Assembly (NCBI RefSeq): GCF_900129295.1
Contig: NZ_FQUU01000004.1
Location: 62,001-126,000 of the forward strand
Origin: Flavisolibacter ginsengisoli DSM 18119
Lineage (GTDB): Bacteria > Bacteroidota > Bacteroidia > Chitinophagales > Chitinophagaceae
Length of the DNA: 64,000 nucleotides
Reading direction: 5' to 3'
Positions 10,220 through 38,448 of this stretch are shown here, one piece after another; the stretch's first letter is position 1, and each line of letters opens with the position of its first letter. The translations under genes and the position numbers were made by a program. The notes beneath the pieces were generated by a model. That model was not told the DNA's origin, did no database searches, and worked only from the letters and a program-made list of their open reading frames with translations.

Positions 10220-10239
10220 ATATTAAAAACAAGAAAACA

Positions 10240-11493: not shown

Positions 11494-11516
11494 TATTCGA
11501 TAGGTAAATAAATTTT

Positions 11517-11540
11517 AAAGCCTCCCCACCGGGAGGCTTT
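11517..11540 (+). terminator. Intrinsic terminator after the gyrA-TPR unit
   Basis: Stem GCCTCCC (11520-11526) and GGGAGGC (11531-11537) with loop CACC, preceded by AAA and followed by TTT ATTAATTAAT. Lies 24 bases after the TPR stop codon. Confidence 0.8.
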
Positions 11541-11601
11541 ATTAATTAATGAACTTCACTCAATGAAATGCAAAGTAAAATCCTTCTATACCTTTTCAAT
11601 T

Positions 11602-12366
11602 CTAGACTATAGTAATTTCAATTCCCATTCCCTTCAGACTCTCCACCATATGGTCGGAAATGCCACTGTCAGTGATGATTTGTTCAATATCTTCCAGGCC
11701 GCAGATTCTACCAAAGCCTCTTTTTCCAAATTTGGTCGAATCCGCAAGAACGATGGTCTTTTGAGAAGCCTTAATCATTTTTTTATTAAGCTGTGCCTCC
11801 ATCATATTGGTAGTAGTTAGCCCAAATTCAAGGTCTATTCCGTCCACGCCCAGGAAAAGTTTACTGCAGGAAAAATCCTCAAGGATCTTCTCTGCATAAC
11901 TGCCAGTAACAGACGAAGAACTTTTTCTTAATATTCCACCCAGTTGAATCACTTCTATTTCGGGGTGACGTATCAACTCCATAGCCACATTCAGCGCTGC
12001 TGTGATTACTGTGAGGCTGCCCTTAGGATAGATGTTCCTGGCTAGAGATAATACTGTTGTTCCGGAGGCAATAAGAATACAGTCATTAGGCTCAACAAGG
12101 TTGGCTGCGGCCTCACCAATATTGGATTTCTCGCCTGATTGTATCTTTTCTTTTTCTTTTACTGGCTTGTCTGCTGTATAAGGATTGCTCATTGTACCAC
12201 CACCATGGGTTCGAAATAAAAGGTGCTTATCCTCCAATAATTTCAGATCCTTTCGAATGGTTACAGATGAAACATTTAGTTCAGAACAAAGGTCAACAAC
12301 TTTCACATTGCCTTCTTTTCTCAATTTGGTGATGATATGCTGATGCCTGTCAGTTAGACTACTCAT
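11602..12366 (-). CDS. glpR: DeoR/GlpR-family transcriptional repressor
   Basis: N-terminal DeoR helix-turn-helix (RHQHIITKLRKEGNVKVVDL, then ELNVSSVTIRKDLKLLE), followed by the family junction FRTHGGG and a DeoRC sugar-phosphate sensor domain (DCILIASGTTVLSLARNI, VTGSYAEKILEDFSCSKLFLGVDGID, LADSTKFGKRGFGRIC). 254 aa is typical. GlpR of other bacteria is released from DNA by glycerol-3-phosphate; the divergent position next to glpD makes the same effector very likely here. It lies 211 bases from glpD across an AT-rich region with repeated TTTCGTTT motifs, probable operators for both genes. The symbol is assigned from context and family. Confidence 0.88.
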   Translation of the reverse strand: MSSLTDRHQHIITKLRKEGNVKVVDLCSELNVSSVTIRKDLKLLEDKHLLFRTHGGGTMSNPYTADKPVKEKEKIQSGEKSNIGEAAANLVEPNDCILIASGTTVLSLARNIYPKGSLTVITAALNVAMELIRHPEIEVIQLGGILRKSSSSVTGSYAEKILEDFSCSKLFLGVDGIDLEFGLTTTNMMEAQLNKKMIKASQKTIVLADSTKFGKRGFGRICGLEDIEQIITDSGISDHMVESLKGMGIEITIV

Positions 12367-12489
12367 AAGTTCTTTGAGGGTACAAAATAATAACGGGGAA
12401 TTTGAATTCCAATAATTCGTATCTAAAATATTTAAATAGGTTCTTTCCCCAAATGTGGAAAACTTATTATTATTAATTGTTTCATAATC

Positions 12490-12566
12490 CTTTCGTTTAT
12501 AAATAAAATTGTTAAAATTGCTTTCGTTTTGTTTAGTTTCATTAATAAAACAAAATAAACTGAAAC
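12490..12566. promoter_or_regulatory. Candidate GlpR operator region
   Basis: In the glpR-glpD divergent spacer, CTTTCGTTT occurs twice (12490-12498 and 12521-12529, 31 bases apart). The second copy starts a 20-base arm (12521-12540) that matches the reverse complement of 12547-12566 at 14 of 20 positions, with a 6-base centre. TTTC/GTTT repeats of this kind are typical DeoR-family binding sites. It ends 11 bases before the glpD ATG, where a bound repressor would block transcription. Confidence 0.55.
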
Positions 12567-12577
12567 ATATTTAAGGA

Positions 12578-14173
12578 ATGAATGATCTGCAATTTAAAGT
12601 GAATTCTATAGACAGGGAACGACTGGCTTTACAATTAGCTGATGAGTCAAAACAATGGGACGTACTTGTGATTGGTGGTGGGGCTACCGGTCTTGGAGTA
12701 GCCATGGATGCTGTAGCCAGGGGATATAATACCCTTTTATTAGAACAATCTGACTTTGCCAAGGGAACTTCAAGCCGGAGCACCAAACTAGTACACGGAG
12801 GTGTTCGTTACCTGGCGCAGGGTGACATTAGACTGGTGCGGGAAGCTAGTGTGGAAAGAGGACGTCTTTGCAGGAATGCTCCCCACCTTGTAAAGAATCA
12901 AACTTTTATCATTCCCATTTACAATTACTGGGATAAGATCAAATATACTTTAGGCCTTAAAATGTATGACTGGATTTCAGGCCGCCTGACACTTGGCTCT
13001 TCTGTTTTTGTTTCCAGGAAAAAGACCATTGAAAGCCTTCCAGGTATAAAACAGGAAGGTTTGCTGGGTGGTGTATTATACCATGACGGACAATTTGACG
13101 ATTCCAGGCTGGCTATTAACCTGGTACAAAGCATCATAGAAAAAGGCGGCTGTGCCATCAATTATATAAAGGTTACAGGCTTACTAAAAGACAATCAGGG
13201 AAAAATTGAAGGAGCTCTTGTGGTGGATACTGAAAACGGAAAAAATTTCCGGGTCCGTGCAAAAGCGGTGATTAATGCCACAGGTGTGTTTGTCGACGAT
13301 ATCCTTCATATGGATAATCCAAAGAGTTTAAAGAGCATATGCGTGAGCCAGGGTGTGCACCTGGTACTTGATAAAGCTTTTTATCCTTCAGAACATGCAT
13401 TAATGATACCGGAAACAAGCGATGGGCGTGTGTTATTTGCAGTGCCCTGGCATGATAAGGTGGTCCTGGGCACTACTGATACACCAGTGGAGGAAGCCTC
13501 CCTGGAACCCCAGGCGCTGGAAAAAGAGATCAATTTTATACTGGAAACTGCTGCGGATTATTTTACGAAGAAGCCTACACGCAGTGATGTGTTGAGTGTG
13601 TTTGCAGGCCTGCGTCCCCTGGCTGCTCCGCAGGGTGAAGAACAAACCACAAAGGAAATTTCAAGAAGCCATAAGATCATGGTTTCTGCTTCCCACCTTT
13701 TTACCATTCTTGGTGGTAAGTGGACGACATACCGAAAAATGGGAGAAGACATGATGAATCGCGTGGAAAAGGAGTTGCAATGGAAGCACCAAAAAACAAC
13801 CACTTCCCTGATGCACATTCATGGTTATGCGGAAGGAATGAACTGGAACGACCCACTGTACTTCTATGGCAGCGATTGCCAATTAATAAAAAAACAAATG
13901 AATGGCAGTTCTGGTCAATGGATAAGCGATAGTCTGAAGATTCATAAAATGCAGGTTCGCTGGGCTGTGGAGAATGAGATGGCAAGAACGGTGGAGGATG
14001 TGCTTGCCAGGAGAACTCGCGCCTTGTTACTGAATGCCGGTGAGAGCATTCGCATTGCCCCTGAAGTGGCAAGGATCATGGCCGAGGAGATGGATAAGGA
14101 CCAGGCCTGGCAAAAAGAGCAGGTTGAAAATTATACCAGTCTCGCTAACCAATATATTCTGAAAACAAACTAA
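12578..14173 (+). CDS. glpD: Glycerol-3-phosphate dehydrogenase (FAD-dependent)
   Basis: Oxidises sn-glycerol-3-phosphate to dihydroxyacetone phosphate and passes electrons to the quinone pool at the inner membrane. The dinucleotide fold [21 protein letters not shown] (29-49) binds FAD; the signature [17 protein letters not shown] follows at about 64-80, then [20 protein letters not shown] and [12 protein letters not shown] with the substrate Arg. The C-terminal DAO_C domain (about 390-530) is complete. 531 aa fits the aerobic GlpD type. First gene of the run leading to glpT (14-base gap) and the SusCD genes; the putative GlpR operator lies directly upstream. Confidence 0.96.
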
Positions 14174-14187
14174 AAGCGCTTGCTATA

Positions 14188-15519
14188 ATGGGATTGCTGA
14201 CTTATTTACAACCGCCGGCACATAAAGAGTTAATGCCAGCGAAAGAAGTGGATGAAGCGTATAAGAAAAAACGGATCCAGGTATTTGTTGGAATTTTTAT
14301 AGGTTATGCAGGTTATTACCTGGTGAGAAAAAACTTTTCTCTTGCCATGCCCGACCTTATTGAAAGAGGCTTTTCAAAGGGCGAACTGGGAATAGCTCTT
14401 TCAGGCGTTTCTATTGCTTACGGCATCAGCAAATTCCTGATGGGAAACTTATCCGACCGAAGTAATGCGCGTATATTCCTCCCCGTTGGACTCCTTTTAT
14501 CTGCACTTACAATGATAGCCATGGGAACAATCCCGTTTGCTCTTTCATCGATAGTGATCATGTTTAGCCTGCTTTTTATCAACGGTTGGTTCCAGGGAAT
14601 GGGATGGCCTCCCTGTGGAAGGGTAATGGTTCATTGGTTTTCGCTCAGGGAAAGAGGCGTGAAGATGTCCATCTGGAATGTGGCACATAATGTAGGAGGT
14701 GGATTGATCGGTCCACTGGCTATTGCAGGATTGGCCATTTTCGGCACCTGGCAAAGCAAGTTTTACTTCCCGGGAATGATCGCCATTTTTATTGCTTTCA
14801 TTGCGTATTTACTAATCAGGGATACACCCCAATCTTGCGGGTTGCCACCCATTGAAACATATAAGAATGACCATCCTGTAGATTATTCACATCAACATGA
14901 AAAAGAATTATCAGCAAAGCAGATCTTCATAGATTATGTTTTGGTTAACAGGGTGTTGTGGTACATAGCTTTTGCCAATGCCTTTATATATTTGGTGCGT
15001 TATGGGGTTTTGGATTGGGCACCGACTTATTTAAAGGAAGCAAAGGGGTTTACAGTCAATGAAACAGGCTGGGCCTATTTTGCTTATGAATATGCAGGTA
15101 TTCCCGGAACATTATTATGTGGATGGTTAAGTGACAAAGTATTCAGAGGCAGGCGAGCTCCGGCAACCATTATTTACATGTTATTAGTACTGGCAGCAGT
15201 TATCGTTTACTGGAAGAATCCTGCGGGGCATCCTTCTATAGATAATATTGCCCTGATCATAATTGGCTTCCTGATCTATGGTCCTGTAATGCTTATTGGT
15301 GTACAGGCCCTTGACCTGGTTCCCAAAAAAGCTGCCGGAACTGCAGCAGGATTAACAGGTTTATTCGGATACCTGGGCGGAGCTCTATTTGCAAATATTG
15401 CTATGGGATATGTTGTAGATGCCTGGGGATGGAATGGTGGCTTTTTAGTTATGATTGCCGCCTGCGTGCTTGCTATATTTTTTACCGCCTTAACCTGGAA
15501 TAAAGAAAAAGCTTTTTAA
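14188..15519 (+). CDS. glpT: Glycerol-3-phosphate:phosphate antiporter (MFS)
   Basis: Organophosphate:Pi antiporter family of the major facilitator superfamily, about 12 membrane segments in 443 aa. Landmarks: an N-terminal [16 protein letters not shown] segment with the phosphate-binding Arg, [14 protein letters not shown] in the 2-3 loop, [22 protein letters not shown] (with the GWPPCGR signature), [16 protein letters not shown], and a second Arg in [19 protein letters not shown]. It brings G3P from the periplasm in exchange for phosphate. Placed 14 bases after glpD, it supplies GlpD's substrate from the periplasmic hydrolysis encoded downstream. UhpT-type hexose-phosphate transport is the alternative but fits the context less well. 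Confidence 0.92.
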
Positions 15520-15547
15520 TCATTTATAATCTTTAATCAACTTGCGT

Positions 15548-18500
15548 ATGAGATCATTTGCGACTGCTGTAGAAAAACTTTGCACTCCGAGAGTGCTGCT
15601 GTTTTTCTTCCTGCTACTAACCGGCTCCTGGGTATCCGCACAGGAAAAAACAGTGACAGGCCAGGTTAGAAATTCTGAAGACAAAGCACCGGTAGTTAGA
15701 GCTACAGTGCAGGTAAAAGGAACCAAAGTATTTACCAGCACGGATGAAAAAGGACATTTTTCAATTAAAGCATCTGACCAACAGGTTCTTGTTGTTTCTG
15801 CTGTAGGCTACAGGCCTCTTGAAAAACGGGTTGGTAACCAATCTGTGCTCAACTTTGATATGATCAGTACTAATACTGAGATGGAAAGTGTTGTAGTAAC
15901 AGCCCTGGGAATTAAAAGAGAAGAAAAAGCCCTTGGTTATTCTGTTGCTAAAGTGAAAGGAGAGGAGTTGACAGAAGCACTTTCCAGCAACTGGACAGAT
16001 GCCTTGTCGGGAAAAGTAGCAGGCCTTAACCTGGTGCGTTCTAACAGCGGACCTGCAGGATCTAATAAAATCATTCTCAGGGGTGAAAGCAACCTTACCG
16101 GTGGTAGTGAAAATGAGGCATTGATAGTAGTTGATGGAGTTGTTATTAACCAGGGAAGTGGCAGAAGAAGTGCTGTGGGGGGTGAAACTGCATATGGTAC
16201 AGGCAGCGATAATATGCCTGCAGATTATGGAAGCGGTCTTAATGATATAAACCCTGAAGACATTGAATCCGTGAGTGTATTAAAAGGGCCCGGTGCAGCA
16301 GCCTTATATGGACAGCGTGGCGCGAATGGAGCTATCATTATTACTACAAAATCAGGAAGTGCAAAAAGAAAAGGTTGGGGAGTCACCCTTAATTCCAATG
16401 CATCAATGGAAAAGGTGAACAGGTGGCCTGATTTCCAGTATGAATACGGCCAGGGTAATGATGGCAAACCTTATTATTCTTTTGGTGCATCCGTAGATGG
16501 ACCTAGTACGAGCGCCACCAGTTCGGCTTATGGTCCCAGGTTTGAAGGACAATCATTTTTTCAGTTTGACCCTGTAACGCAAACGCAGGGAACCGAAAGA
16601 ACTCCATGGGTGCCCTATCCAAATAAAATAAAAAACTATTTCAATACAGGTAATACTGTTACCAATTCAATCAGCGTGGATGGTGGTACTGACAAAACCA
16701 CTGCCCGTTTTTCTGTTACTAATGTTTCAAATAAATGGATCATACCTAATACTGGTTATAAAAGAAATACAATTGCTTTATCTGTAAACTCAAAAGTTAA
16801 TGAGAAGCTCCAGATTTCCTCAAAGATCAATTATACCAATAAATGGAGCGACAATCTTCCGGGTGCTGGCTATGGTAACCAGTCCATCATGTACTGGTTT
16901 ATTTTCTGGCAGCCGAATGCTGACCTGGATTGGTTAAGAAATTATTGGAGAAATGGGCTGGAAGGAAGAAAGATCATGTATCCTTACAGTTCCTTCCCTG
17001 AAAACCCTTATGCCGTAGCCTACGAATTTATCAATCGCTCGAATCGTCATAACATTACCGGCAATGTGCAGGCAAGCTATAATTTCTCCAAAGAGTTAAG
17101 TTTGCAGGTAAGAACATCTCTTGATCTTTCCTATGAGCAGCGTGCACAAGAGCGTCCATTTGATGCAGGTTCAAAATACCAGCTAGGTAGTTTTAGAACT
17201 CAAAATATCTTTTCACAGGAAGCTACAACCGATTTCCTATTGAGGTATGCTAAAAAACTAAAAGATTTTGATTTTTCCGTAACTGCAGGTGGTAGTGCAT
17301 TAAGAAATACATACAACAAAGATGAAGTACGTGCAGACTCATTGATTTACCCGCAGATCTACTCAATGTCCAATGCAGCAGGCCCACTTGTAACATTACC
17401 ATACAATACCAAATACGCTATTAACAGTTTTTACGGACTCGTATCAGGCGCATTTAAAAACTTCCTGTTTCTCGATCTTACTGCAAGGCAGGACTGGAAC
17501 AGTGTACTGGCAACTCCAACAAGAACAGAAAATGCAGGATTTTTTTACCCCTCTGCCAACTTAAGCTTTATTGCTTCCGAAGTACTAAAGCTTCCGTCAT
17601 CGATTGATTTCGCAAAACTTAGATTTTCTGCTTCTGGTGTTGGTAGTGGTGGTACCACTCCCTATCGTACAGCATATAATTATACTTCTGCAGGAAGTTT
17701 ATACAGCGGAGGATTACAAAACCCGTCTATATTGGCTAATCCAGACCTGAAATCATTAAGAACAGTTAGTTATGAAACAGGAATGGAGATAAAGATGTTC
17801 CATAATCGCCTGAATATGGACCTTGCATTATATACCGGGAATACTAAGGACCAGATCCTGGAACGTATACTTGACCGTTCTTCCGGATATACCAAAGTAT
17901 TGATCAATGCGGGTAAGGTTAATAATAAAGGGGTTGAAGTATCCCTCAATGGTACTCCCATATCTTCCAAGAAAGGGTTGAAATGGAATACAGGCATTGT
18001 ATTCTCTGCAAATAGTAATACCATTAAAGAACTGGCTGATAGTTCTGTGGTGCTGCAAACAGGCCCGGTAGGTGGTGGTCAGATCGTTGCCAAAGTAGGA
18101 GGCAGTATGGGAGATCTTTATGGAAGAGGGTATGAGCGTGCACCTGACGGCCAGGTGGTTTATGATGCCAATACCGGATTCGCAAAGATCACCCAGGATG
18201 TTATTTTCCTGGGAAATACAATTCCCAAATGGAAGCTTGGATTCAATAATGAATTTCAATATAAAGGATTCCGTCTTAATCTTTTATTTGATGGACAATA
18301 TGGTGCAGTGGCACATTCCCTGATGCACTACAAGCTGGCAGAACAGGGTAAAACGAAAAACACTTTACCAGGTAGATATAATGGCATTATCGGTAATGGA
18401 GTAGTTATGGGAACAGATGGCAAATACAAACAGAATGATGTAATTGCTACTGATATTGATGAATACTACCGTTCGCATTTTGGAATTGACAATGCGGAAG

Positions 18501-18760
18501 GAAGTACATTCAGCACTGACTTCATCAAATTCAGGGAAGCAAGACTTGACTATACTTTACCAACCAGCATTACCAAAAAAATAGGTATTCAACGGGCAAC
18601 ATTAGGTGTTTATGGACGTGACCTGTATATCTGGTCCAAATGGCCAATATTCGATCCTGAATTCGGAACCGTTAGCGGAACAGATATTGTTCGTGGTTTC
18701 GAAGTTGGTCAGTTTCCATCAACCCGCACAATGGGAGTGAATCTAATTGTTGGATTTTAA
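15548..18760 (+). CDS. SusC/RagA-family TonB-linked outer-membrane transporter
   Basis: Signal peptide ending near VSA-QEK, a carboxypeptidase-like beta domain (TVTGQVRNSEDKAPVVRATV..), the MESVVVTALGIKREEKALGY stretch of SusC proteins, a plug domain with ALSGKVAGLNLV and IESVSVLKGPGAAALYG (the LYG motif), and a C-terminal barrel ending in LIVGF. 1070 aa is standard. ATG 15548 is preferred to a TTG at 15542. With the SusD gene 10 bases downstream it forms an import pair that moves oligomers across the outer membrane using TonB energy. Being sandwiched between glpT and periplasmic phosphodiesterases suggests a glycerol-phosphate-containing substrate. Confidence 0.95.
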   Translation: MRSFATAVEKLCTPRVLLFFFLLLTGSWVSAQEKTVTGQVRNSEDKAPVVRATVQVKGTKVFTSTDEKGHFSIKASDQQVLVVSAVGYRPLEKRVGNQSVLNFDMISTNTEMESVVVTALGIKREEKALGYSVAKVKGEELTEALSSNWTDALSGKVAGLNLVRSNSGPAGSNKIILRGESNLTGGSENEALIVVDGVVINQGSGRRSAVGGETAYGTGSDNMPADYGSGLNDINPEDIESVSVLKGPGAAALYGQRGANGAIIITTKSGSAKRKGWGVTLNSNASMEKVNRWPDFQYEYGQGNDGKPYYSFGASVDGPSTSATSSAYGPRFEGQSFFQFDPVTQTQGTERTPWVPYPNKIKNYFNTGNTVTNSISVDGGTDKTTARFSVTNVSNKWIIPNTGYKRNTIALSVNSKVNEKLQISSKINYTNKWSDNLPGAGYGNQSIMYWFIFWQPNADLDWLRNYWRNGLEGRKIMYPYSSFPENPYAVAYEFINRSNRHNITGNVQASYNFSKELSLQVRTSLDLSYEQRAQERPFDAGSKYQLGSFRTQNIFSQEATTDFLLRYAKKLKDFDFSVTAGGSALRNTYNKDEVRADSLIYPQIYSMSNAAGPLVTLPYNTKYAINSFYGLVSGAFKNFLFLDLTARQDWNSVLATPTRTENAGFFYPSANLSFIASEVLKLPSSIDFAKLRFSASGVGSGGTTPYRTAYNYTSAGSLYSGGLQNPSILANPDLKSLRTVSYETGMEIKMFHNRLNMDLALYTGNTKDQILERILDRSSGYTKVLINAGKVNNKGVEVSLNGTPISSKKGLKWNTGIVFSANSNTIKELADSSVVLQTGPVGGGQIVAKVGGSMGDLYGRGYERAPDGQVVYDANTGFAKITQDVIFLGNTIPKWKLGFNNEFQYKGFRLNLLFDGQYGAVAHSLMHYKLAEQGKTKNTLPGRYNGIIGNGVVMGTDGKYKQNDVIATDIDEYYRSHFGIDNAEGSTFSTDFIKFREARLDYTLPTSITKKIGIQRATLGVYGRDLYIWSKWPIFDPEFGTVSGTDIVRGFEVGQFPSTRTMGVNLIVGF

Positions 18761-18770
18761 TTTTTTAAAA

Positions 18771-20300
18771 ATGAATAAGACCAAAAAAATAATACTCGGA
18801 ATAGCTGTTATGTGCAGCGTTGTAGTTAGTTCCTGCACTAAAGACTTCCAGGAGATCAATACAGATCCTAATAATACAAGCAGTGCCTTGCCGCAGCAAT
18901 TGCTGGCACCTGCACTGGTAAGCACATTGTCCTATAACATGCTACGCAACCGCAATTTCAATAATGAACTCATGCAGGTTACTGTGGATATGAGTGATGG
19001 AGATGGCAGGGTGTTCAGGTATGATTACCGCGCCAACTGGTCGGATTACCTGTATAATGGCTGGTATTCAGAACTGACCAACTTTAAGGATATATACAAG
19101 TTTGCAAGTGAAGAACTGAACTATAATAAATCCTATATGGGCATATCATTGATCTGCCAGTCATGGATCTATTCCTTGCTCACAGACACCTATGGCGATG
19201 TTCCCTATTTTGAATCCAACCTGGCAAGGGACAGTAGTATCTATGAACCAAAGTTTGACCGCCAGAAAGATATTTACCTTGATATCTTCAAAAAGCTGGA
19301 GGCTGCTGATACATTGTTAGCAAGTAAAAAAAGTATACAGGCTTCAAGTGATCCGGTATTTTATGGTGATGTTACCAAGTGGCAAAAGTTTGGCAATTCT
19401 CTTTACTTAAGGTTATTGTTAAGACTCTCCGGCAAAGCTGAAGTGTCACAGGAAGTAATTGCCAAGATGAAACAGATCGTTGATAACCCTTTGGACTATC
19501 CGATCATGACAAGCAATGAAGAATCTGCCATTTTAAGATGGACAGGGGTTGCGCCTTATACATCACCCTTTACTACGGTCAGGGAACAGGATTTCAGGGC
19601 ACCGGGCATTGCCAGTTTCTTTATAGACAACCTTTCTGTCTGGCACGATCCAAGAATTGATGTTACCTATGGAACAGGCTCTCCTACCAAGACCAACAGG
19701 TGGGCTATTGCACCCTACCAGGGAGCTTATGAAGGTGTGCCAAGTGGGTATGCTATAGGGGATAATCCAACGCGTAAATCTTATTTCTATTCTTCTTCCA
19801 ATAACGGTAATACAGGGCCAAGCCTGGTAAATGAACCACTTACAGGCATGATTATGAACTATGCAGAATTGCAGTTCATTCTCGCAGAGGCAGCTGCAAA
19901 GGGTTACATTGATGGATCTGCAGAAACCTATTACAATAATGGAGTGGAAGCAAGCATCAAACTTTGGTTGCCTACCTGGCCTGTTGCAGTTACGGATTAT
20001 CTTGCTGCAGCCGATATGCAATGGAACGATACTCAGAGCATTGACCAGAAAATGGAAAAGATTCATTTGCAAAAGTACTATGCACTGTTTCTCGTTGACC
20101 TGCAGCAATGGTTTGAATACCGCCGCACTGGCCACCCTATTTTACCAAAAGGAACAGGATTGAGAAACAATGGAGAAATGCCTGCCAGGATGACTTACCC
20201 GGTGTATGTTCAATCAACCAATCCAACCAATTACAAAGCTGCTGTAGCTGCACAGGGTCCTGATGTCATATCAACTCCTGTATGGTGGCAAAAACCCTAA
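18771..20300 (+). CDS. SusD/RagB-family surface lipoprotein (SusD-like_2 type)
   Basis: Lipoprotein signal MNKTKKIILGIAVMCSVVVSSC with the lipidated Cys at 22, followed by TKDFQEINTDPN as in most SusD proteins. The body shows SusD-like_2 landmarks: NWSDYLYNGWYSELTNFKDI, QSWIYSLLTDTYGDVPYFES and MNYAELQFILAEAAAKG (the helical TPR part). It covers the SusC barrel and binds the ligand on the cell surface. 509 aa from the ATG at 18771; a TTG at 18747 lies inside the susC 3' end and is less likely. Ligand chemistry cannot be read from the sequence. Confidence 0.93.
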   Translation: MNKTKKIILGIAVMCSVVVSSCTKDFQEINTDPNNTSSALPQQLLAPALVSTLSYNMLRNRNFNNELMQVTVDMSDGDGRVFRYDYRANWSDYLYNGWYSELTNFKDIYKFASEELNYNKSYMGISLICQSWIYSLLTDTYGDVPYFESNLARDSSIYEPKFDRQKDIYLDIFKKLEAADTLLASKKSIQASSDPVFYGDVTKWQKFGNSLYLRLLLRLSGKAEVSQEVIAKMKQIVDNPLDYPIMTSNEESAILRWTGVAPYTSPFTTVREQDFRAPGIASFFIDNLSVWHDPRIDVTYGTGSPTKTNRWAIAPYQGAYEGVPSGYAIGDNPTRKSYFYSSSNNGNTGPSLVNEPLTGMIMNYAELQFILAEAAAKGYIDGSAETYYNNGVEASIKLWLPTWPVAVTDYLAAADMQWNDTQSIDQKMEKIHLQKYYALFLVDLQQWFEYRRTGHPILPKGTGLRNNGEMPARMTYPVYVQSTNPTNYKAAVAAQGPDVISTPVWWQKP

Positions 20301-20349
20301 GCTATCGTACTATTTTTAAAACCATGTTGTAAAACATAATCATACTACA

Positions 20350-21849: not shown

Positions 21850-21907
21850 GGGACATTTAATAACGGCTCGGTTTACCTTAGGCCGGTTTAGTCATTATAA
21901 ATAAGAA

Positions 21908-21943
21908 GCCAGGTTAGATAATAACATCTTTGTCTAGCCTGGC
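21908..21943 (+). other. Hairpin inside the operon, before the phosphoesterase gene
   Basis: GCCAGGTTAGA (21908-21918) pairs with TCTAGCCTGGC (21933-21943), one G-T pair, 14-base loop, followed by CAATTAAAT with no long T-run. A second weaker GGCC-type hairpin sits at 21863-21887. In this 108-base gap, the largest within the run up to the alpha-galactosidase gene, it may lower read-through or mark an mRNA processing point. Confidence 0.4.
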
Positions 21944-21957
21944 CAATTAAATCCAAC

Positions 21958-23379
21958 ATGCAAAGAAGACGATTTCTTCAAAATTTTGCCTGGCTTACAG
22001 GAGGATTATTAGTTGGCTGCAATAAAAAGCTCTATTCATCAAAGGAAGAAGCAAATCTTTTAAAGGGTGTTGTCAGATCTGGCAACAGGGGAGTAGCTAA
22101 TGTTGTTGTCAGCGATGGATATAACCTGGTGCTTACAGATAAATCAGGTGCCTATGAATTTGCACTGCATCCCGAAGCAACTTCTGTTTTTATATCAACG
22201 CCCTCAGGGTATAGTTTCATAGAAGAGAAAAGTATTGCAAGGCATTACCACCTTGTACAGGATATTGAGAACAGGAAGGCAGTAAATTTTGAATTACAAC
22301 AATTGGATAAAGATGATAACGAACACCAGTTCATCATCTGGGCAGACCCACAGGTAAAAAACGCCAAAGATGTGGAGAAAATGATGGCTCATTCCGTGCC
22401 GGATGTTCAGAAGATCATAGCTGCTGCAGGTTCAAGCGCCCTTATACATGGTATTACGGTTGGTGATATAGTTTGGGATGAACATAAACATTTTGCTGAC
22501 TATGATATAGCCGTTGGCAAAATGGGCATTCCGTTTTTCCAATGCCTGGGCAACCATGACATGGATTACAATAAAGGAGGTGATGAAACCTCTGATGACA
22601 CCTTCCAGGAAAAATATGGCCCTACCTGGTATTCATTTAACAGGGGCAAAGTGCATTATGTGGTGATGGATAATGTTAGGTACCTTGGCAAAGACCGGGA
22701 TTATGATGGATTCATACCACAACACCAGCTCGACTGGCTTCAAAAGGATTTGTCTTATATACCTAAAGAAAATCTCATCATACTTTGCCTGCACATCCCT
22801 GTTCATAATGGTGTGAAGAATAATTCAGATCTCTATGCTTTGTTGCAGGAAAGAAATGTACATATTATGTCGGGCCATACACATTATCACCGCAATGTGA
22901 TAAAGGATAATATTTATGAGCACAACCATGGCACAGTATGTGGCGCCTGGTGGACTGGTCCCATCTGTGAAGATGGTACACCTTGCGGCTACGGGGTTTA
23001 TAAAGTAAATGGTACGGAACTAAGCTGGCATTACCAGGCTACAGGTGAAACAGCAGATTATCAGCAAAAGATATTTGTAACCGATTATAATGCCACCCAA
23101 AAGCAGGTACAGGTAAATATCTGGAACTATGACCCTGCATGGAAAACTGAATATTTTGTAGATGGAGTAAGCAAAGGAGAACTGGAACAGTTTATAGGCC
23201 TTGATCCCGGGGCTTACGCTACAATGCTGGGCCCTAATCTTCCCCAACCGCGCAGCTTTGCTGAACCTAAACAGACTGACCATTTATTCAAGGCATTTAT
23301 TCCAGTTAACACCAAAAATATTGTAGTGAAAACTACTGATCGATTTGGAAAAGTGTATGAATCTTCCTTATCAATATGA
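21958..23379 (+). CDS. Calcineurin-like phosphoesterase (lipoprotein, Tat-type signal)
   Basis: Starts MQRRRFLQNFAWLTGGLLVGC: a twin-arginine motif joined to a lipobox with Cys at 21. An N-terminal beta domain (MetallophosN-like, LLKGVVRSGNRGVANVVVSDG) is followed by the metal site: WADPQV, GDIVWD, LGNHDMD, LCLHIPVHN and SGHTHYHRN, which supply the Asp/Asn/His ligands for two metals. A C-terminal beta domain (about 360-470) completes the architecture. It would hydrolyse phosphomono- or diesters in the periplasm. Its last four bases overlap the next start (ATGA), which implies translational coupling to the SGNH esterase. Confidence 0.92.
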   Translation: MQRRRFLQNFAWLTGGLLVGCNKKLYSSKEEANLLKGVVRSGNRGVANVVVSDGYNLVLTDKSGAYEFALHPEATSVFISTPSGYSFIEEKSIARHYHLVQDIENRKAVNFELQQLDKDDNEHQFIIWADPQVKNAKDVEKMMAHSVPDVQKIIAAAGSSALIHGITVGDIVWDEHKHFADYDIAVGKMGIPFFQCLGNHDMDYNKGGDETSDDTFQEKYGPTWYSFNRGKVHYVVMDNVRYLGKDRDYDGFIPQHQLDWLQKDLSYIPKENLIILCLHIPVHNGVKNNSDLYALLQERNVHIMSGHTHYHRNVIKDNIYEHNHGTVCGAWWTGPICEDGTPCGYGVYKVNGTELSWHYQATGETADYQQKIFVTDYNATQKQVQVNIWNYDPAWKTEYFVDGVSKGELEQFIGLDPGAYATMLGPNLPQPRSFAEPKQTDHLFKAFIPVNTKNIVVKTTDRFGKVYESSLSI

Positions 23380-24065
23380 AACCTATGCGTACCAAAATTT
23401 TTAATGTTGTTCCCTTTCTGATATTTTCTTTTTTTGCCAATGCCCAGGCAACCAGGTGGGACAGTACTTACCGGCCTGCCAGTTATTCACTGAAAGTTGC
23501 ACAGTTCAAAAGCTTTCCCAATAGCTGTAATGATTATATTTTCCTGGGCAACAGCATTACTGCCGGTGTAGACTGGAACGAATTGCTGGAAAGAACCAAT
23601 GTCCGCAACAGGGGCATATCAAGTGACATAACATTTGGTGTATTGGAAAGATTAGATGAGGTCATTGAAGGACAACCGGCAAAAGTGTTTATCCTTATAG
23701 GAATCAATGATATCTCGCGTAACATTCCTGACAGCTTTATTGTATCCAATTACAAAAAGATCATTGACAGGATAAAAGCAGGCAGTCCGAAAACATCCAT
23801 TTACATGCAAACCCTGCTTCCTGTTAACAATGAATTCACACAGTTCAAAAATCATTACAATAAAGATGCACATATTACATATGTCAATACAGCATTAAAA
23901 CAGTTGGCCAGGGATTGTAAGGTGAACCTGATCGACCTGAATCCAAATTTCCAGGATGCCAATGGTAAACTGGATAAGAAATACACAGAGGACGGATTGC
24001 ACCTTAACATCGAAGGATATAAACTGTGGGCATCCATTTTAAAGAAAGGTAATTATTTAAACTAG
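23376..24065 (+). CDS. Periplasmic SGNH/GDSL-family esterase
   Basis: Signal peptide ending FFANAQA. The four SGNH blocks are present: FLGNSITAGVDW (Ser nucleophile), GISSDITFG (oxyanion Gly), LIGINDIS (oxyanion Asn) and DGLHLNIEGY (Asp-x-x-His dyad). 229 aa is usual. Family members remove acyl or acetyl esters from glycans and lipids. In this operon plausible ester substrates are acyl chains of glycerolipids or D-alanyl/acetyl groups of a decorated glycerol polymer; this is inference. The start overlaps the phosphoesterase stop by 4 bases. Confidence 0.9.
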   Translation: MKPMRTKIFNVVPFLIFSFFANAQATRWDSTYRPASYSLKVAQFKSFPNSCNDYIFLGNSITAGVDWNELLERTNVRNRGISSDITFGVLERLDEVIEGQPAKVFILIGINDISRNIPDSFIVSNYKKIIDRIKAGSPKTSIYMQTLLPVNNEFTQFKNHYNKDAHITYVNTALKQLARDCKVNLIDLNPNFQDANGKLDKKYTEDGLHLNIEGYKLWASILKKGNYLN

Positions 24066-24070
24066 ATCTT

Positions 24071-24991
24071 ATGAAGCATATAGTTTATTGTATGGCAACA
24101 GCTTTGCTGGCATTTTCCTGTGCTGACACTAAAAAAGTAACAGGAAATAAACATGCAACAGTAGCTTTTCCTGCCTTTGATGAAGAAGCGCATAGGGGAG
24201 GCAGGGGATTGATGCCAGAGAATACTATTCCGGCCATGCTGAATGCTATTGACCTGGGTGTAACCACACTTGAAATGGATACGCATATTACCAAAGACAA
24301 TAAGGTAATCTTATCTCACGATCCCTATTTCAATGAGAATTTTACCACGACACCGGAAGGAAATACATTGACTAAAGCAGAGGCAGTACAACGCCTGCTG
24401 TATACAATGACCTATGACAGCATTCAGAAATATGATGTTGGATTAAAGCCTTATGCGGCCTTTCCCAGGCAAAAGAAAATTGCTGTACACAAACCCTTGC
24501 TGGCCGATTTGCTGGATGCAACAGAAAAACATGCAGGGGAAACAGGAAAGGCCATGTTTTATAATATCGAGATCAAGTCGAAGCCGGAGAATGACGGAAA
24601 AAAACATCCTCCTGTTGAAGCATTCGTTGACCTTGTCATGCAGGTGATACTGCAGAAAGGAACTGAGGCCCGCACAGTCATCCAGTCCTTTGATCCGAGG
24701 GCTTTACAGGTAATGCATCGCAAATATCCTTCTGTTGCCACTTCCTTATTAATTGAGGATTATGATAAACGTTCAGTGGAAGAACAGTTACAGCAATTGG
24801 GCTTTACACCATTTGTCTACAGCCCGCATTTTTCATTGGTCACTCCGCAACTGGTGCAACAATGCCGTTCCAGGCAAATGAAGCTGGTACCATGGACCAT
24901 CAACACCCTTGAACAAATACAACAGCTAAAGAACACGGGTGTTGATGGCATCATTACCGATTACCCCGACCTGTTTCAACAATTGAAATAA
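24071..24991 (+). CDS. Glycerophosphodiester phosphodiesterase lipoprotein
   Basis: GlpQ-type GDPD with lipobox LLAFSC (Cys17). TIM-barrel landmarks: EAHRGGRGLMPENTIPA (catalytic HR and metal-binding PENT), TLEMDTHITKDNKVILSHDP (Glu/Asp ligands and catalytic His) and NIEIKSKPEND, ending LVPWTINTLEQIQQL and DGIITDYPD. It cleaves glycerophosphodiesters to sn-glycerol-3-phosphate plus an alcohol; some GlpQ enzymes also attack poly(glycerol phosphate) teichoic acids. Placed on the periplasmic side it would feed GlpT. It lies 5 bases after the SGNH gene and 18 before the alpha-galactosidase gene. Confidence 0.95.
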   Translation: MKHIVYCMATALLAFSCADTKKVTGNKHATVAFPAFDEEAHRGGRGLMPENTIPAMLNAIDLGVTTLEMDTHITKDNKVILSHDPYFNENFTTTPEGNTLTKAEAVQRLLYTMTYDSIQKYDVGLKPYAAFPRQKKIAVHKPLLADLLDATEKHAGETGKAMFYNIEIKSKPENDGKKHPPVEAFVDLVMQVILQKGTEARTVIQSFDPRALQVMHRKYPSVATSLLIEDYDKRSVEEQLQQLGFTPFVYSPHFSLVTPQLVQQCRSRQMKLVPWTINTLEQIQQLKNTGVDGIITDYPDLFQQLK

Positions 24992-25009
24992 TCCTATTAC
25001 CCTTAATAG

Positions 25010-27175
25010 ATGATAATGTATCGTTCTATTTCGTTATTGCTACTAATTGTTTCTTTTTCTGTTAGGATATGCGCCCAGGTGGCACCTATTGTTATTGAAA
25101 CAGCAAAAACAAGTATTGTTTATAAAGTAAAGAAAAACGGGAGATTGTACCAGGCATACCTGGGAGAGAAATTGAAAGATGCCGCTGAATATGCTTCCTT
25201 AGCGGATACACGGAACGAAGCCTATATTGGTGCCGGCATGGAGGACCTGTTCACACCTGCTATACAAGTGGAACATGCAGATAAGAACCCATCCCTGGAA
25301 TTACATTTTCAGTCAGTGCAGGTAAAACAACCAGATAAGAATACCACCATTACTTCCATTTTGCTGATAGATCCAAAATATGCTTTTGAAGTAAGATTAA
25401 ACTTTGCTGCCTTTTACCGAGAGAATATAATAAAAACCTGGACAGAGATCAGCAACAAAGAGAAGGGTAGCGTATGGTTGCAAAATTATGCCTCCTCCCT
25501 TTTACACCTGGATGCACAGCAATACTGGTTAACGCAGTTTCATGGTGACTGGGGCATGGAAGCCAGGATGGAAGAAACCCAATTAACAGCAGGAATTAAA
25601 GAGATCGATTCCAAACTGGGAACACGGGCCAATAAGTTTCTTTCTCCTATGTTCCTGTTGGCATTAAATGCACCTGCTAAAGAAAATACCGGTGATCTAC
25701 TTGCAGGCACACTAGCCTGGACAGGCAATTATAACCTGCACTTCGAGATTGACAATATAAATTCCCTGAGGATACTTAGTGGAATCAATTCCTATGCTTC
25801 TGCCTATGAACTAAAGCCAGGTGCCCTGTTTGTAACTCCTGTTTTTATATTCACGTTTTCAACACACGGTAGAGGAGAGGCTACACGTAATCTTCACCAA
25901 TGGGCAAGGCATTATGGGATAATGGATGGTGATCGTCCACGTTATACATTGCTCAATAACTGGGAGGCTACGGGATTTAATTTTACACAGGATACACTGG
26001 TGAAATTGTTTGATGATGCTGCCAAACTGGGAGTAGATCTTTTCTTACTCGATGATGGCTGGTTTGGCAATAAATACCCGCGAACTGATGCCAGGGCTGG
26101 CCTGGGCGATTGGCAGGAAAACAAGCAAAAGCTGCCGGGAGGTATTGGTTACCTCGTCAAAGAAGCGGAAAGTAAAGGGGTGAAGTTTAGTATCTGGCTG
26201 GAACCTGAAATGGTGAATCCCAAAAGTGAATTATATGAACAACACCCGGAGTGGATCATCAGGCTGCCCAACAGGGATGAAAATTACCAGCGCAACCAAT
26301 TAGTCCTTGATCTAAGTAATCCCCGGGTACAGGATTTCATTTTCAACATGGTAGATAATATGCTCACCTCCAATCCTCATTTGGCCTATATCAAATGGGA
26401 TTGCAACCGTACTATGACCAATAGTTATTCCAACTATTTAGGCAACAGGCAGTCCCATTTGTTTATTGATTATGTCAATGGTTTATATAAAGTATTGGAG
26501 CGCCTGCATAGCAAACATCCGCACCTGCCAATGATGCTATGTTCTGGTGGCGGCGGCCGTACAGATTATGGCGCTTTAAAATACTTCACTGAATTCTGGC
26601 CAAGTGACAATACCGATGGACTGGAAAGAGTATATATCCAATGGGGGTATTCCTATTTTTTCCCAGCACTTGCAGTTGCCAATCATATCACTTCATCAGG
26701 CAAGCAATCCTTAAAGTTCAGGACTGATGTGGCCATGATGGGGAAGTTGGGATATGATATAAATATCAAAGAGCTGAAGCCTGAAGAACTTGAATTCAGC
26801 AAGGCTGCTGTACAGAATTATAAGCGTATCAGTCCTGTTATCTGGTATGGAGACCTGTACCACCTCGTCTCTCCATATGATGAGAACAGGGCAGTGCTGA
26901 TGTATGTTGACAGCACACAAAACAAGGCTGTGGTTTTTAACTACAATCTCAATACACGCTTTGGCGAACAGCTTGATGAAGTAAAATTGCAGGGACTGGA
27001 TGCAAATAAAAAGTATAAAATAGAAGAGATCAATTTAATGCCTGGCTCTAAACCTGTAACAATGTATCATGACAAGATATATAGCGGTGATTATTTAATG
27101 AAGGTTGGATTGCAATTTAATAAAGGAAGACCATTGGCATTAAGCAGTATTGTTTTGCAGTTAACTGCCCAATAA
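25010..27175 (+). CDS. Secreted alpha-galactosidase, GH36 family
   Basis: Signal peptide MIMYRSISLLLLIVSFSV.. cut near ICA-Q. N-terminal beta-sandwich, then the GH36 barrel: FLLDDGWFG, FSIWLEPEMVNPKSELY, the nucleophile Asp464 in IKWDCNR and the acid/base Asp533 in WPSDNTDG, 69 residues later as in known GH36 enzymes; a C-terminal beta domain ends the 721 aa. It releases terminal alpha-galactose. In a raffinose context this would be ordinary, but here no other sugar enzyme is present and all neighbours handle glycerol phosphate. Galactosyl-glycerol compounds or galactose-decorated teichoic acid are therefore the likelier targets. Confidence 0.95.
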   Translation: MIMYRSISLLLLIVSFSVRICAQVAPIVIETAKTSIVYKVKKNGRLYQAYLGEKLKDAAEYASLADTRNEAYIGAGMEDLFTPAIQVEHADKNPSLELHFQSVQVKQPDKNTTITSILLIDPKYAFEVRLNFAAFYRENIIKTWTEISNKEKGSVWLQNYASSLLHLDAQQYWLTQFHGDWGMEARMEETQLTAGIKEIDSKLGTRANKFLSPMFLLALNAPAKENTGDLLAGTLAWTGNYNLHFEIDNINSLRILSGINSYASAYELKPGALFVTPVFIFTFSTHGRGEATRNLHQWARHYGIMDGDRPRYTLLNNWEATGFNFTQDTLVKLFDDAAKLGVDLFLLDDGWFGNKYPRTDARAGLGDWQENKQKLPGGIGYLVKEAESKGVKFSIWLEPEMVNPKSELYEQHPEWIIRLPNRDENYQRNQLVLDLSNPRVQDFIFNMVDNMLTSNPHLAYIKWDCNRTMTNSYSNYLGNRQSHLFIDYVNGLYKVLERLHSKHPHLPMMLCSGGGGRTDYGALKYFTEFWPSDNTDGLERVYIQWGYSYFFPALAVANHITSSGKQSLKFRTDVAMMGKLGYDINIKELKPEELEFSKAAVQNYKRISPVIWYGDLYHLVSPYDENRAVLMYVDSTQNKAVVFNYNLNTRFGEQLDEVKLQGLDANKKYKIEEINLMPGSKPVTMYHDKIYSGDYLMKVGLQFNKGRPLALSSIVLQLTAQ

Positions 27176-27193
27176 GTTTAAGAAAACAAACTA

Positions 27194-27201
27194 TAGTTTT
27201 G
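27194..27201 (+). promoter_or_regulatory. Putative glpK -7 box TAGTTTTG
   Basis: Exact TAnnTTTG match in the 75-base gap after the alpha-galactosidase gene, 49 bases before the glpK ATG. It suggests that glpKF can also be transcribed separately. Confidence 0.4.
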
Positions 27202-27250
27202 AAAATTCTGAAATAACAACGTACCATTATAAAATTTTATAAGCAAGGCA

Positions 27251-28750
27251 ATGTCGAAATATATCTTATCATTTGACCAGGGAACTACCAGCTCAAGGGC
27301 CATAGTATTTAACAAGCAGGGAGAAGTAGTGTCTGTTGCACAAAAAGAGTTCACCCAGTTTTTCCCTGAGCCGGGGTGGGTTGAACATGATGCGAATGAG
27401 ATCTGGTATACACAGTTGGGTGTTGCAGCGGAGGCAGTGGTTAAGGCTGGTCTCTCCACACAGGATATCGCCGCCATTGGTATCACCAATCAACGGGAGA
27501 CAACAGTGGTTTGGGACCGTGCCACACATCAGCCAATACATAAAGCCATCGTATGGCAGGACAGGAGAACGGCATCCTATTGCGATGAGCTGAAAAGGCA
27601 GGGTCATGCAGAAGATATACAAAAACGAACAGGCCTGATCCCGGACGCTTATTTTTCTGCCACCAAGGTCAAATGGATATTGGATAATGTTGAAGGCGCA
27701 AGAGAAAAAGCAAACAGGGGAGAACTCTGTTTTGGTACTGTTGACGCATGGTTATTATTCAAGCTTACAAATGGAAAAGTACATGCAACGGATGTCACCA
27801 ATGCTTCCCGGACCATGTTGTATAATATCAATTCACTGCAGTGGGATGAAGCTATGCTGAAACTCTTTGATATTCCTGCTGCCATTCTTCCTGAGGTTCG
27901 CTCCAGCAGTGAGATCTACGGTTATACCGACCAGGTACTAACGGGTACCAATATTCCCATTAGTGGCATTGCCGGCGATCAGCAGGCAGCCTTGTTTGGC
28001 CAGATGTGCACGCAACCAGGCATGGTGAAAAACACCTATGGTACCGGTTGTTTCATGTTAATGAATACAGGTACGCAGCCCATCTTATCCAAAAACAACC
28101 TGCTTACGACCATAGCCTGGAAAATAGGTGAAACAACCACCTATGCTTTGGAAGGAGGTGTATTCATAGCCGGCGCGGTAGTGCAATGGTTACGAGATGG
28201 CCTGGGAATTATAAAAACATCCGGTGAAGTGGAAAAACTGGCTGCTTCTGTTGAAGACAATGGTGGCGTTTATTTTGTTCCTTCATTTGCCGGGCTTGGG
28301 GCTCCTTACTGGAACCAGCATGCGCGGGGAACCATGATGGGTATTACCAGGGGTACTACAGCTGCACATATTGCCCGTGCTTCTATTGAAAGTATAGCCT
28401 TTCAAACCATGGATGTACTCCAGGCAATGAATGCAGATGCATCTATTCCTATCAAACAGATAAGGGTTGATGGCGGAGCTACTGTGAATGACCTGTTAAT
28501 GCAGTTTCAAAGCGATATGCTGGAGTGCTCCGTCGTTCGGCCTAAGATCACGGAGACCACTGCAGCAGGTGCGGCCTACCTGGCCGGCCTGGCCATTGGA
28601 CTTTGGAAAGACCTTGCAGAAATAGAGCAGTACTGGAAAGAGGAAAGAACATTTGAGCCATCCATAGAAACTACAAAGCGTCAAAAACAAATTCTGAAAT
28701 GGCACACTGCTGTTAAAGCAGCACAGGTATGGGGTGAACTTGAAAACTAA
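27251..28750 (+). CDS. glpK: Glycerol kinase
   Basis: FGGY-family kinase that makes sn-glycerol-3-phosphate from glycerol and ATP, trapping glycerol that enters through GlpF. Landmarks: [14 protein letters not shown] near the start (phosphate-binding loop 1), [25 protein letters not shown] (adenosine motif), [19 protein letters not shown], and the FGGY signature region [20 protein letters not shown]. The 499-aa length matches GlpK (about 500) rather than other FGGY kinases. Followed by glpF after 15 bases. Its product is the substrate of the GlpD encoded at the start of the locus. Confidence 0.97.
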
Positions 28751-28765
28751 TCATCAAACATTCGT

Positions 28766-29479
28766 ATGTCTATATTTATATCTGAACTCATTGGAACTGC
28801 ACTGCTCATTATTTTAGGTAATGGAGTGGTGGCTAACGTAGTACTCAACAAGACAAAGGGCAATAATGGCGGCTGGATCGTTATTACATTTGGCTGGGCC
28901 ATAGCTGTATTTGTAGGTGTGTTTGTTGCTGCTAAAACTAGTGGCGCACATTTGAATCCTGCCATCACTTTAGCCTTTGCCTACCTGGGTAAGATCAATA
29001 TCGATAAAATTCCTCTTTACCTGGGAGGCCAATTTGCAGGTGCAATGATTGGTGCATTCATTGTGTGGCTTACCTACCAGTTACACTTTAATGCAACGGA
29101 AGACAAGACCTTAAAGCTGGCTTGTTTTGCTACTATACCTGCCATCAGGAATACCACGCATAATTTGATCAGCGAGATCGTAGGAACTTTCATACTTGTG
29201 ATCAGTGTATTGTATATGGCTTCACCAGACAATAGCCTGGGAGCCCTCGATGCATTGCCTGTAGCATTATTGGTATTGGGAATAGGATTGAGCGTGGGCG
29301 GAACTACCGGCTATGCCATCAATCCAGCAAGGGATCTCGGTCCGCGCATCATCCATGCCATTTTGCCGATGAAAAATAAAGGAACAAGTGATTGGAGCTA
29401 TAGCTGGATTCCTATTGTTGGTCCCATCATAGGAGCTTTCCTGGGAGCTGTAGTTTTTCATGTGATCAGTAAGCTTTGA
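28766..29479 (+). CDS. glpF: Glycerol facilitator (aquaglyceroporin)
   Basis: Major intrinsic protein with six membrane segments and both half-helix motifs: SGAHLNPAITLAFA (first NPA) and GYAINPARDLGPR (second NPA). The Asp after the second NPAR is characteristic of glycerol-conducting GlpF proteins as opposed to water-only aquaporins, which supports glycerol transport, as does the position 15 bases after glpK. 237 aa, slightly shorter than E. coli GlpF (281). Last gene of the locus; no strong terminator is visible after it. Confidence 0.95.
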   Translation: MSIFISELIGTALLIILGNGVVANVVLNKTKGNNGGWIVITFGWAIAVFVGVFVAAKTSGAHLNPAITLAFAYLGKINIDKIPLYLGGQFAGAMIGAFIVWLTYQLHFNATEDKTLKLACFATIPAIRNTTHNLISEIVGTFILVISVLYMASPDNSLGALDALPVALLVLGIGLSVGGTTGYAINPARDLGPRIIHAILPMKNKGTSDWSYSWIPIVGPIIGAFLGAVVFHVISKL

Positions 29480-38300: not shown

Positions 38301-38448
38301 TCAAACCATCAAATTCAGAAGTGATGATTTTGGGGACTTTGGCTGCCTGGGAGCCATTTGAAGTTTTTGTTTTTGATTTTACCTCTTCTAATATAACGTG
38401 ATCAGATGCAGGTGCTGCACCATTCGCTTTCGTTTTTCTGGTACCCAT
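32320..38448 (-). CDS. Giant soluble hybrid histidine kinase with tandem HAMP array
   Basis: 2042 aa with no membrane segment. Order: an N-terminal region with degenerate HAMP units (about 45-241), nine near-identical 92-residue units (242-1069) each carrying HAMP signatures ([28 protein letters not shown], [20 protein letters not shown]), a tenth half unit, a GAF domain (about 1150-1280), a coiled coil, HisKA with His1359 in [10 protein letters not shown], HATPase ([27 protein letters not shown]), and three receivers ([36 protein letters not shown]). Layout recalls fungal group III osmosensing kinases (Nik1/Os-1). Signal and output are unknown. The adjacent response-regulator kinase is probably its partner. 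Confidence 0.93.
35242..37725 (-). repeat. Nine tandem 276-bp coding repeats (HAMP units)
   Basis: Within the hybrid kinase, residues 242-1069 are nine in-register 92-residue units, each 276 bp without indels. Units 3 and 4 (around 36650-37060) are nearly identical in DNA and both carry VALEV where the others carry VAREV, pointing to recent duplication or gene conversion. Confidence 0.93.

Follow-up and report, generated by a model that had tools for sequence, protein, structure and literature searches.

What is a SusCD outer-membrane importer doing among the genes for glycerol-3-phosphate (G3P) metabolism? The question is raised by a stretch of 64,000 nucleotides (hereafter the window), part of the 4.68 Mb draft genome of Flavisolibacter ginsengisoli DSM 18119 (contig NZ_FQUU01000004.1, positions 62,001 to 126,000), in which a susC-susD pair and several exported hydrolases lie within a run of glp genes, next to a divergent DeoR-family regulator. 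The evidence gathered here suggests that this is probably a glycerol-phosphate utilisation locus, in which a TonB-driven importer and exported phosphodiesterases would stand under a glycerol/G3P regulator. Most likely, it takes up glycerophosphodiester compounds and hydrolyses them to G3P and glycerol, which would supply the cell with both carbon and phosphorus. Recurrence of the arrangement in related bacteria points to dedicated feeding on glycerol-phosphate compounds. SusCD importers are usually read as glycan importers; this locus would place them in a glycerol-phosphate regulon as well, one that has a conserved operator, and suggests how Bacteroidota might draw carbon and phosphorus from lipid head groups or from teichoic acids. 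Such glp-linked SusCD loci may easily be mistaken for sugar loci.

An earlier note, made from the DNA alone, had named twelve tightly spaced genes, a divergent regulator among them; all were recovered in place, with matching families. The regulator gene (11602-12366, minus strand; PF00455 DeoRC, PF08220 HTH_DeoR) faces away from a plus-strand unit of eleven genes, whose spacing ranges from a 4-base overlap (phosphoesterase/SGNH esterase) to 108 bases (DUF5689/phosphoesterase). Terminator-like matches on the plus strand number four, all within genes, and none falls in the gaps of the unit. The unit opens with glpD, for glycerol-3-phosphate dehydrogenase (12578-14173; PF01266 DAO, PF16901 DAO_C; best model NF008899 with 302.1 bits, below its cut-off of 360), and glpT, for the G3P transporter (14188-15519; TIGR00712, 728.7 bits for a cut-off of 632.55). 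The TonB-linked outer-membrane importer gene susC follows (15542-18760; TIGR04056 and TIGR04057 over cut-off, Pfam Plug and CarbopepD_reg_2, no STN domain reported by Pfam), then susD, for the surface lipoprotein lid (18747-20300; SusD-like_2, PF12771, 2.7e-106), and the gene of a DUF5689 lipoprotein (20350-21849; PF18942). The hydrolases are an exported metallophosphoesterase of the MetallophosN/C type (21958-23379; PF16370, PF16371), a secreted SGNH esterase (23376-24065; PF13472), a glycerophosphodiester phosphodiesterase of the GDPD family with a lipoprotein-like signal (24071-24991; PF03009) and a GH36 alpha-galactosidase (25010-27175; PF02065; AgaB 4fnq, E 3e-114). The unit ends with glpK, for an FGGY glycerol kinase (27251-28750; PF00370, PF02782), and glpF, for a glycerol facilitator of the MIP family (28766-29479; PF00230). 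Thus, glpD, glpT, glpK and glpF all stand in one unit, glpK and glpF being assigned by Pfam family only and named from the glp context. As listed, susD begins at a TTG and shares 14 bases with susC; the true start is probably an ATG near 18771, and the translation has a lipobox Cys followed by TKDFQE. Pfam reports PF12771 and PF12741 as the only SusD domains, and the adjacent SusC/SusD pair that marks polysaccharide utilisation loci is present.

Is this gene order peculiar to one strain? The best 80 loci of a GlpT scan of the GTDB species collection were compared with the window proteins, a SusD being counted in the same family at 33% identity or more over at least 400 residues. The family occurs in 25 of these 80 loci, including ones from Chitinophagaceae, Pedobacter, Mucilaginibacter, Sphingobacterium, Pontibacter and Rufibacter; the gene-neighbourhood search suggested in the earlier note thus finds glp-linked SusCD in several genera and families. 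In these 25 loci, glpD and gdpd are each present 21 times, the DUF5689 and phosphoesterase genes 19 times, the SGNH gene and glpK 16 times, glpF 14 times, the regulator 12 times, a PLD-like protein 8 times and GH36 never. These counts are lower bounds, since many loci end at the 10 kb flank or at a contig edge. Gene order varies, the Pedobacter loci L028, L031 and L034 reading susC-susD-DUF5689-phosphoesterase-GDPD-glpT-SGNH, and the PLD-like protein is confined to Pontibacter or Rufibacter (five loci with DUF5689, three without). Such recurrence across genera and families makes the unit more than a chance assembly.

The glp genes also have several outer-membrane partners. In three Bacteroidales loci (L029, L039, L042), glpD-glpT and GDPD are found with a distant phosphoesterase (26-28%) and a second type of SusCD, of the RagB family (PF07980/PF14322 by Pfam in L042); a divergent regulator and a HAD protein are present in two of the three. 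A glpT-GDPD-Porin_O_P trio stands in nine loci (L018, L041, L044, L045, L047, L049, L051, L054, L055; Pfam on L044), from Marinifilum, Lutibacter and others, and may offer the same substrates a simpler way across the outer membrane. Beside glpT and GDPD there are thus three kinds of entry through that membrane: two families of SusCD and one Porin_O_P. Two same-genus glp loci (L009 4083-10398 and L010 11131-16595) have no matches to susC, susD, DUF5689 or the phosphoesterase, and their glpT, with SGNH in L009 and GDPD in L010, is left as fragments, some with stops, which reads as loss of the importer module.

The same question can be asked starting from SusD. In a phylum sample of 392 genomes, GlpT (E<=1e-90) is found in 10 and SusD (E<=1e-50) in 55. 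Nine GlpT genomes remain when that of the window is set aside; SusD lies 2 to 4 kb from GlpT in G176, G399 and G431, and in none of the other six. SusD of at least 49% identity occurs in eight non-window genomes of this sample, with 35 stretches (L092-L126) examined for SusD surroundings phylum-wide: it is glp-linked in G323, G431 and G399, adjoins phosphoesterase-GDPD-SGNH without any glp gene in G134 and G192, and has neither in G204, G059 and G307. Within the family Chitinophagaceae, 224 genomes yielded GlpT in 6 and SusD (E<=1e-100) in 46, and SusD lies about 3 kb from GlpT in all six. The 53 SusD places were read as 52 loci, the second SusD of G459 not being counted separately. Sixteen of the 52 are glp-linked; in 14 of these the run includes a phosphoesterase gene, and ten are without glpT (L145, L151, L154, L155, L161, L096, L171, L175, L176, L183). 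SusCD homologues do therefore lie beside glp genes elsewhere, contrary to the outcome that the earlier note had named as fatal to its reading.

How the glp link is distributed was followed on a quick SusD tree of 90 rows (40 glp, 21 ECF, 29 other; GlpT-retrieved loci included; SH-aLRT support only), built without the duplicate or partial loci L001, L002, L003, L038, L098, L099, L100 and L163 and without SusD under 36% identity. The glp state changes 17 times, at least 12 of these changes being forced by starred branches, and shuffled states give 29.6 (0 of 500 as low): the state is clustered, yet has switched repeatedly. One row counted as other, L184, on a 4.5 kb contig, is almost identical to the glp-linked L173. 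In the latter (8449-14040, G631), susC is read in pieces of 253 and 828 residues and DUF5689 reaches only 247 residues, which means either a broken copy or a sequencing slip. In G459 (L159/L160), SusC-SusD-DUF5689 sets flank glpD-glpT on both sides, the second set, before glpD, being complete.

What, then, controls the importer? The window regulator scores 249.2 bits with the AgaR model NF040755, just below the cut-off of 260, so this model is not passed. The E. coli-type GlpR model NF008154 gives 106.8 bits (cut-off 331) and NF041397 gives 181 (cut-off 300), and the E. coli-type GlpR was rejected as its family. The label glpR-like in the earlier note is, in that sense, not upheld, and since the AgaR model outscores the GlpR model, it is a name by context only. 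However, 44 of 47 regulator orthologues (at least 45% identity; duplicate loci counted) adjoin glpD or glpK, and because this place is conserved, G3P would be the ligand.

A TTTCrTTT-type repeat, about 10 bases apart, is common to the regulator/glpD gaps (in one case glpK) of 27 loci, L038 and L098 (duplicates of L006 and L028) being left out of the training. The motif scores 513.8 (width 20) and 538.2 (width 24) as the best of 12 starts; three shuffled sets, at width 24 and with the best of 6 starts, gave 371.6 to 376.6. When both strands of the 64 kb were scanned with a model trained without the window, the top site was 12520-12539 (plus strand, 23.1 bits), followed by 12548-12567 (minus strand, 12.8 bits), between the first predicted operator and the glpD start, and the top site outside the gap reached 11.5 bits. 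With five same-genus loci excluded as well, the values are 23.2, 13.9 and, for the best site elsewhere, 12.8 bits. Each gap was then scored by 200 dinucleotide shuffles. Duplicate or partial loci, nine in all (L001, L002, L003, L038, L098, L100, L132, L136, L163), were set aside, and so was the window row, which had been trained and was thus not counted. Nine of 11 held-out glpR/glpD gaps are positive at p<=0.01 and all 11 at p<=0.05. The predicted operator presumably resembles AgaR sites.

Operator sites also stand directly 5' of susC in four relatives (L080, p 0.005; L094, 0.015; L095, 0.005; L056, 0.005). In L094 and L095, the regulator lies beside glpD on the same contig, 77 and 64 kb from susC. 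The susC gaps of L031 and L034 have p values of 0.18 and 0.075 by shuffles, and of 0.018 and 0.008 when compared with 499 other upstream regions. Since the operator is conserved and stands before susC in these four relatives, the view that the glp regulator controls the importer appears well supported, as far as sequence comparison goes. The proposal that a DeoR/GlpR-type sensor of G3P governs the importer thus keeps its conserved operator and gene set; it loses the E. coli-type GlpR, and G3P as ligand would follow from gene context.

It should be noted that a number of observations weigh against a glp importer under glp control. Of the 52 SusD loci, 18 have ECF-sigma and/or FecR-like genes upstream of susC, 9 have the phosphoesterase only and 9 neither. 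These labels have their own limits: the tally covers only genes in the run on one strand plus any divergent regulator, which is why the divergent phospholipase C of L156 was missed and this locus stands under neither; the ECF/FecR labels come from blastp, some at 24-28% identity, and Pfam confirmed ECF in L144 and FecR in L144, L138, L142 and L097. The nearest tree rows of the window SusD are themselves ECF-linked (L144 by path, L138 by identity, 74%). An exclusive tie of this SusCD family to glp genes was therefore rejected; the split of its loci across glp, ECF/FecR and other surroundings indicates a shared importer family whose glp link is recurrent, not exclusive. As for the operator, the glpD gaps without an adjacent regulator reach p<=0.05 in only 8 of 20 cases; nine of these 20 carry this SusD family, seven of them being positive (L016, L019, L020, L025, L026, L096, L161) and L155 and L159 negative. 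The glpR/glpD gap of L033 shows no clear site. The susC gaps reach p<=0.05 in only 8 of 45 cases (the duplicates L058 and L099 both retained): L056, L080, L094 and L095 are clear, L028 is at 0.050, and L140, L152 and L177, which are not glp-linked, are at 0.04 to 0.05, as chance would give. The four clear cases are all from Sphingobacteriaceae-like genomes, hence few independent events, and in L080 and L056 the sequence ends about 0.9 kb before susC, inside glpD, with no regulator in it. A fixed operator pattern occurs 84 times genome-wide and 89 times in a reversed control, without enrichment; therefore, a position-weight scan with held-out rows was used.

Operator-like sites precede some ECF-labelled genes too, with 6 of 24 at p<=0.05 (L178 at 0.005). 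In the ECF-FecR-susC loci L178, L179, L167 and L146, a glp-type site of this kind is found before the ECF gene, with p from 0.005 to 0.03. This is a hint that some ECF-linked SusCD copies may respond to the same regulator.

How would the unit work? The DeoR-type regulator, most likely a repressor, would act on the glpD promoter through the TTTCrTTT-repeat operators at 12520-12567, and would be released by a phosphorylated ligand, most likely G3P; the operator is predicted from conservation, and repression and ligand would follow from the family and the setting. At the surface, SusD and the DUF5689 lipoprotein would capture a compound containing glycerophosphodiesters, and SusC would import it, as their families suggest. 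Still outside the inner membrane, the phosphodiesters would be hydrolysed by GDPD and the GpdQ-like metallophosphoesterase, and ester groups taken off by the SGNH esterase. G3P would then enter through GlpT, and glycerol through GlpF to be phosphorylated by GlpK, GlpD leading to dihydroxyacetone phosphate and glycolysis. The pathway from G3P and glycerol to glycolysis by GlpT, GlpF, GlpK and GlpD is established. Loci that lack glpT and have glpK/glpF (L151, L171, L175, L176, L183) fit glycerol as a second product. A role in carbon supply, beside that of phosphorus, would be expected, as genes for carbon use and their regulator accompany the unit. What is imported is probably a glycerophosphodiester compound, which may come from lipids or be a poly(glycerol phosphate), for instance teichoic acid. 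That a glycerol phosphate is the substrate, as first proposed, agrees with neighbours belonging to phosphodiesterase families.

The individual proteins are consistent with these roles. The phosphoesterase begins with a twin-arginine-like signal with a lipobox. No PDB entry was matched by its sequence, and its model (pLDDT 88) is closest in Foldseek to Rv0805 (E 6e-11) and GpdQ (E 5e-9), so a GpdQ/Rv0805-like fold is predicted. Residues D130, D170, N199, H200, H279, H307 and H309, unchanged across 22 aligned rows, are presumably metal ligands, in agreement with those of GpdQ. The nearest solved structures of the SGNH esterase are 6njc (Sialate O-acetylesterase / Lysophospholipase L1) and 7pzg (E 1e-47). 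Those of GDPD are 3ch0 (E 1.6e-68) and, further away, 5t91/5t9b/5t9c (E 8e-20), which we take to be the teichoic-acid hydrolase GlpQ of Bacillus. The DUF5689 model has a mean pLDDT of 62 and a pTM of 0.51; the structural reading rests on the N-terminal half, where residues from about 31 to 240 are mostly over 90, the C-terminal half being modelled poorly. Foldseek pairs this N-terminal half with Teb1 and HIN-200, both of which have tandem OB folds (E about 4e-6 at best, TM to target up to 0.52), and a tandem OB fold is predicted. OB folds bind nucleic acids and other ligands too, and the prediction leaves a polymer substrate possible.

Do known systems combine these features? In E. coli and Bacillus, the glp regulon (glpTQ, glpD, glpFK and GlpR) likewise joins GDPD with GlpT, GlpD, GlpK, GlpF and a DeoR-type regulator. 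However, it is not known to have a dedicated TonB-driven outer-membrane importer, and the window regulator is nearer the AgaR model, with a predicted operator of TTTC repeats. Polysaccharide utilisation loci share SusC, SusD, a surface lipoprotein and exported hydrolases in one unit, but here the hydrolases include phosphoesterases and the regulator is of the DeoR type. The sole glycoside hydrolase, GH36, rightly listed as a member of the window unit, is not conserved, being absent from the other 185 retrieved loci (blastp E<=1e-8); since it is in the window alone, the conserved carbohydrate-active enzyme of a polysaccharide utilisation locus is lacking. The nearest described systems are the PusCD phosphate utilisation systems of Flavobacterium, which the main text of PMC8115612 proposes for organic phosphorus uptake and describes as induced by phosphate depletion, PUSI to PUSIII carrying ECF or FecR genes; the concept is repeated in PMC8812569. 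As in the window, SusCD is found beside exported phosphodiesterases or phosphatases, and inner-membrane organophosphorus transporters are said by the authors to belong (PMC8115612). The two differ in control, by phosphate depletion there (PMC8115612) and by a predicted glp regulator here, and the word glycerol is absent from the main text of that paper, figures and supplements aside. The view that no described system has this form must thus be qualified by a related published concept (PMC8115612); it agrees with the open-access full-text literature, where no paper on SusCD inside a glp operon was found (subscription papers, preprints and supplements lay outside the scope). In Bacteroides thetaiotaomicron, a TonB receptor and SusD (BT4724-25) are near a GDPD (BT4727), as here, but this is a mere line in an iron-response table of PMC10434189, and the likeness is by description only. 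The Riemerella DUF5689 protein RA0C_RS04920 adjoins a carboxypeptidase-regulatory-like outer-membrane protein, RA0C_RS04915 (PMC8459023); its context is natural transformation, and a text search of that paper gave no occurrence of SusD.

These comparisons bring other readings with them. The locus could be a PusCD-type system whose main job is phosphorus supply, the glp genes merely clearing leftover glycerol. In the Flavobacterium clusters, which are regulated by inorganic phosphate, SusCD comes together with phosphodiesterases, phosphatases and inner-membrane organophosphorus transporters (PMC8115612), and relatives of this SusCD adjoin phospholipase C (L157; divergently L156) or type I phosphodiesterases (L165, L169). 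Yet the carbon genes glpD, glpK and glpF travel with the unit, and a DeoR-type regulator and its operator are conserved at its head, which makes this reading rather unlikely. PusD1/PusD2 are pf07980/pf14322 (PMC8115612) and not PF12771 as here, a difference that is not decisive, PusD being called polyphyletic in the same text. A reading that we hold about equally doubtful is that teichoic acid is the substrate: SusCD and the OB-fold lipoprotein would import poly(glycerol phosphate), the SGNH esterase cutting D-alanyl esters, GDPD and the phosphoesterase depolymerising the chain and GH36 stripping alpha-galactosyl groups in this strain. SusCD importers serve oligomers, the predicted tandem OB folds would suit a polyanionic polymer, GDPD is sequence-related to the presumed GlpQ structures, and GH36 is present in the window unit. 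Against this, the locus has no teichoic-specific gene, the phospholipase C (L157, L156) or PLD-like neighbours in relatives point to lipids, GH36 is not conserved and OB folds bind many ligands. In its fullest form, which seems to us comparably improbable, this would be a dedicated poly(glycerol phosphate) locus, wall teichoic acid being captured and imported by the DUF5689 lipoprotein and SusCD and depolymerised to G3P and glycerol under glp control, with the importer module moving repeatedly between ECF/FecR and glp control; if true, Bacteroidota graze on Gram-positive walls.

That the top Foldseek matches of DUF5689 are DNA-binding OB folds, and that the Riemerella DUF5689 protein is discussed among the essentials of natural transformation, beside an outer-membrane protein (PMC8459023), could suggest a DNA-binding DUF5689, a SusCD importing oligonucleotides and glp genes as chance neighbours. 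We consider this very unlikely, as glp-linked rows cluster on the SusD tree (17 changes versus 29.6 in shuffles, GlpT-retrieved loci included) and share the operator, and as the Pfam scan of the twelve genes gave no nuclease or nucleoside family. Most improbable of all, and disfavoured, is an alpha-galactoside locus centred on GH36, for galactosyl-glycerol, floridoside or galactolipid. GH36 does lie inside the operon, and glycerol freed from galactosyl-glycerol could enter by GlpF/GlpK, but the other retrieved loci keep the remaining genes without any GH36, which was accordingly rejected as the key to the substrate.

Beyond the glycerol-phosphate unit, an open reading frame of 187 residues (29602-30165, minus strand) follows glpF on the opposite strand, without any Pfam match. 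Further on, a receiver/kinase protein (30966-32270) is found next to a hybrid kinase of 2042 residues (32320-38448, minus strand) with ten or eleven HAMP repeats, GAF, HisKA and three receiver domains, in a region of raised G+C (0.516 at 36-38 kb).

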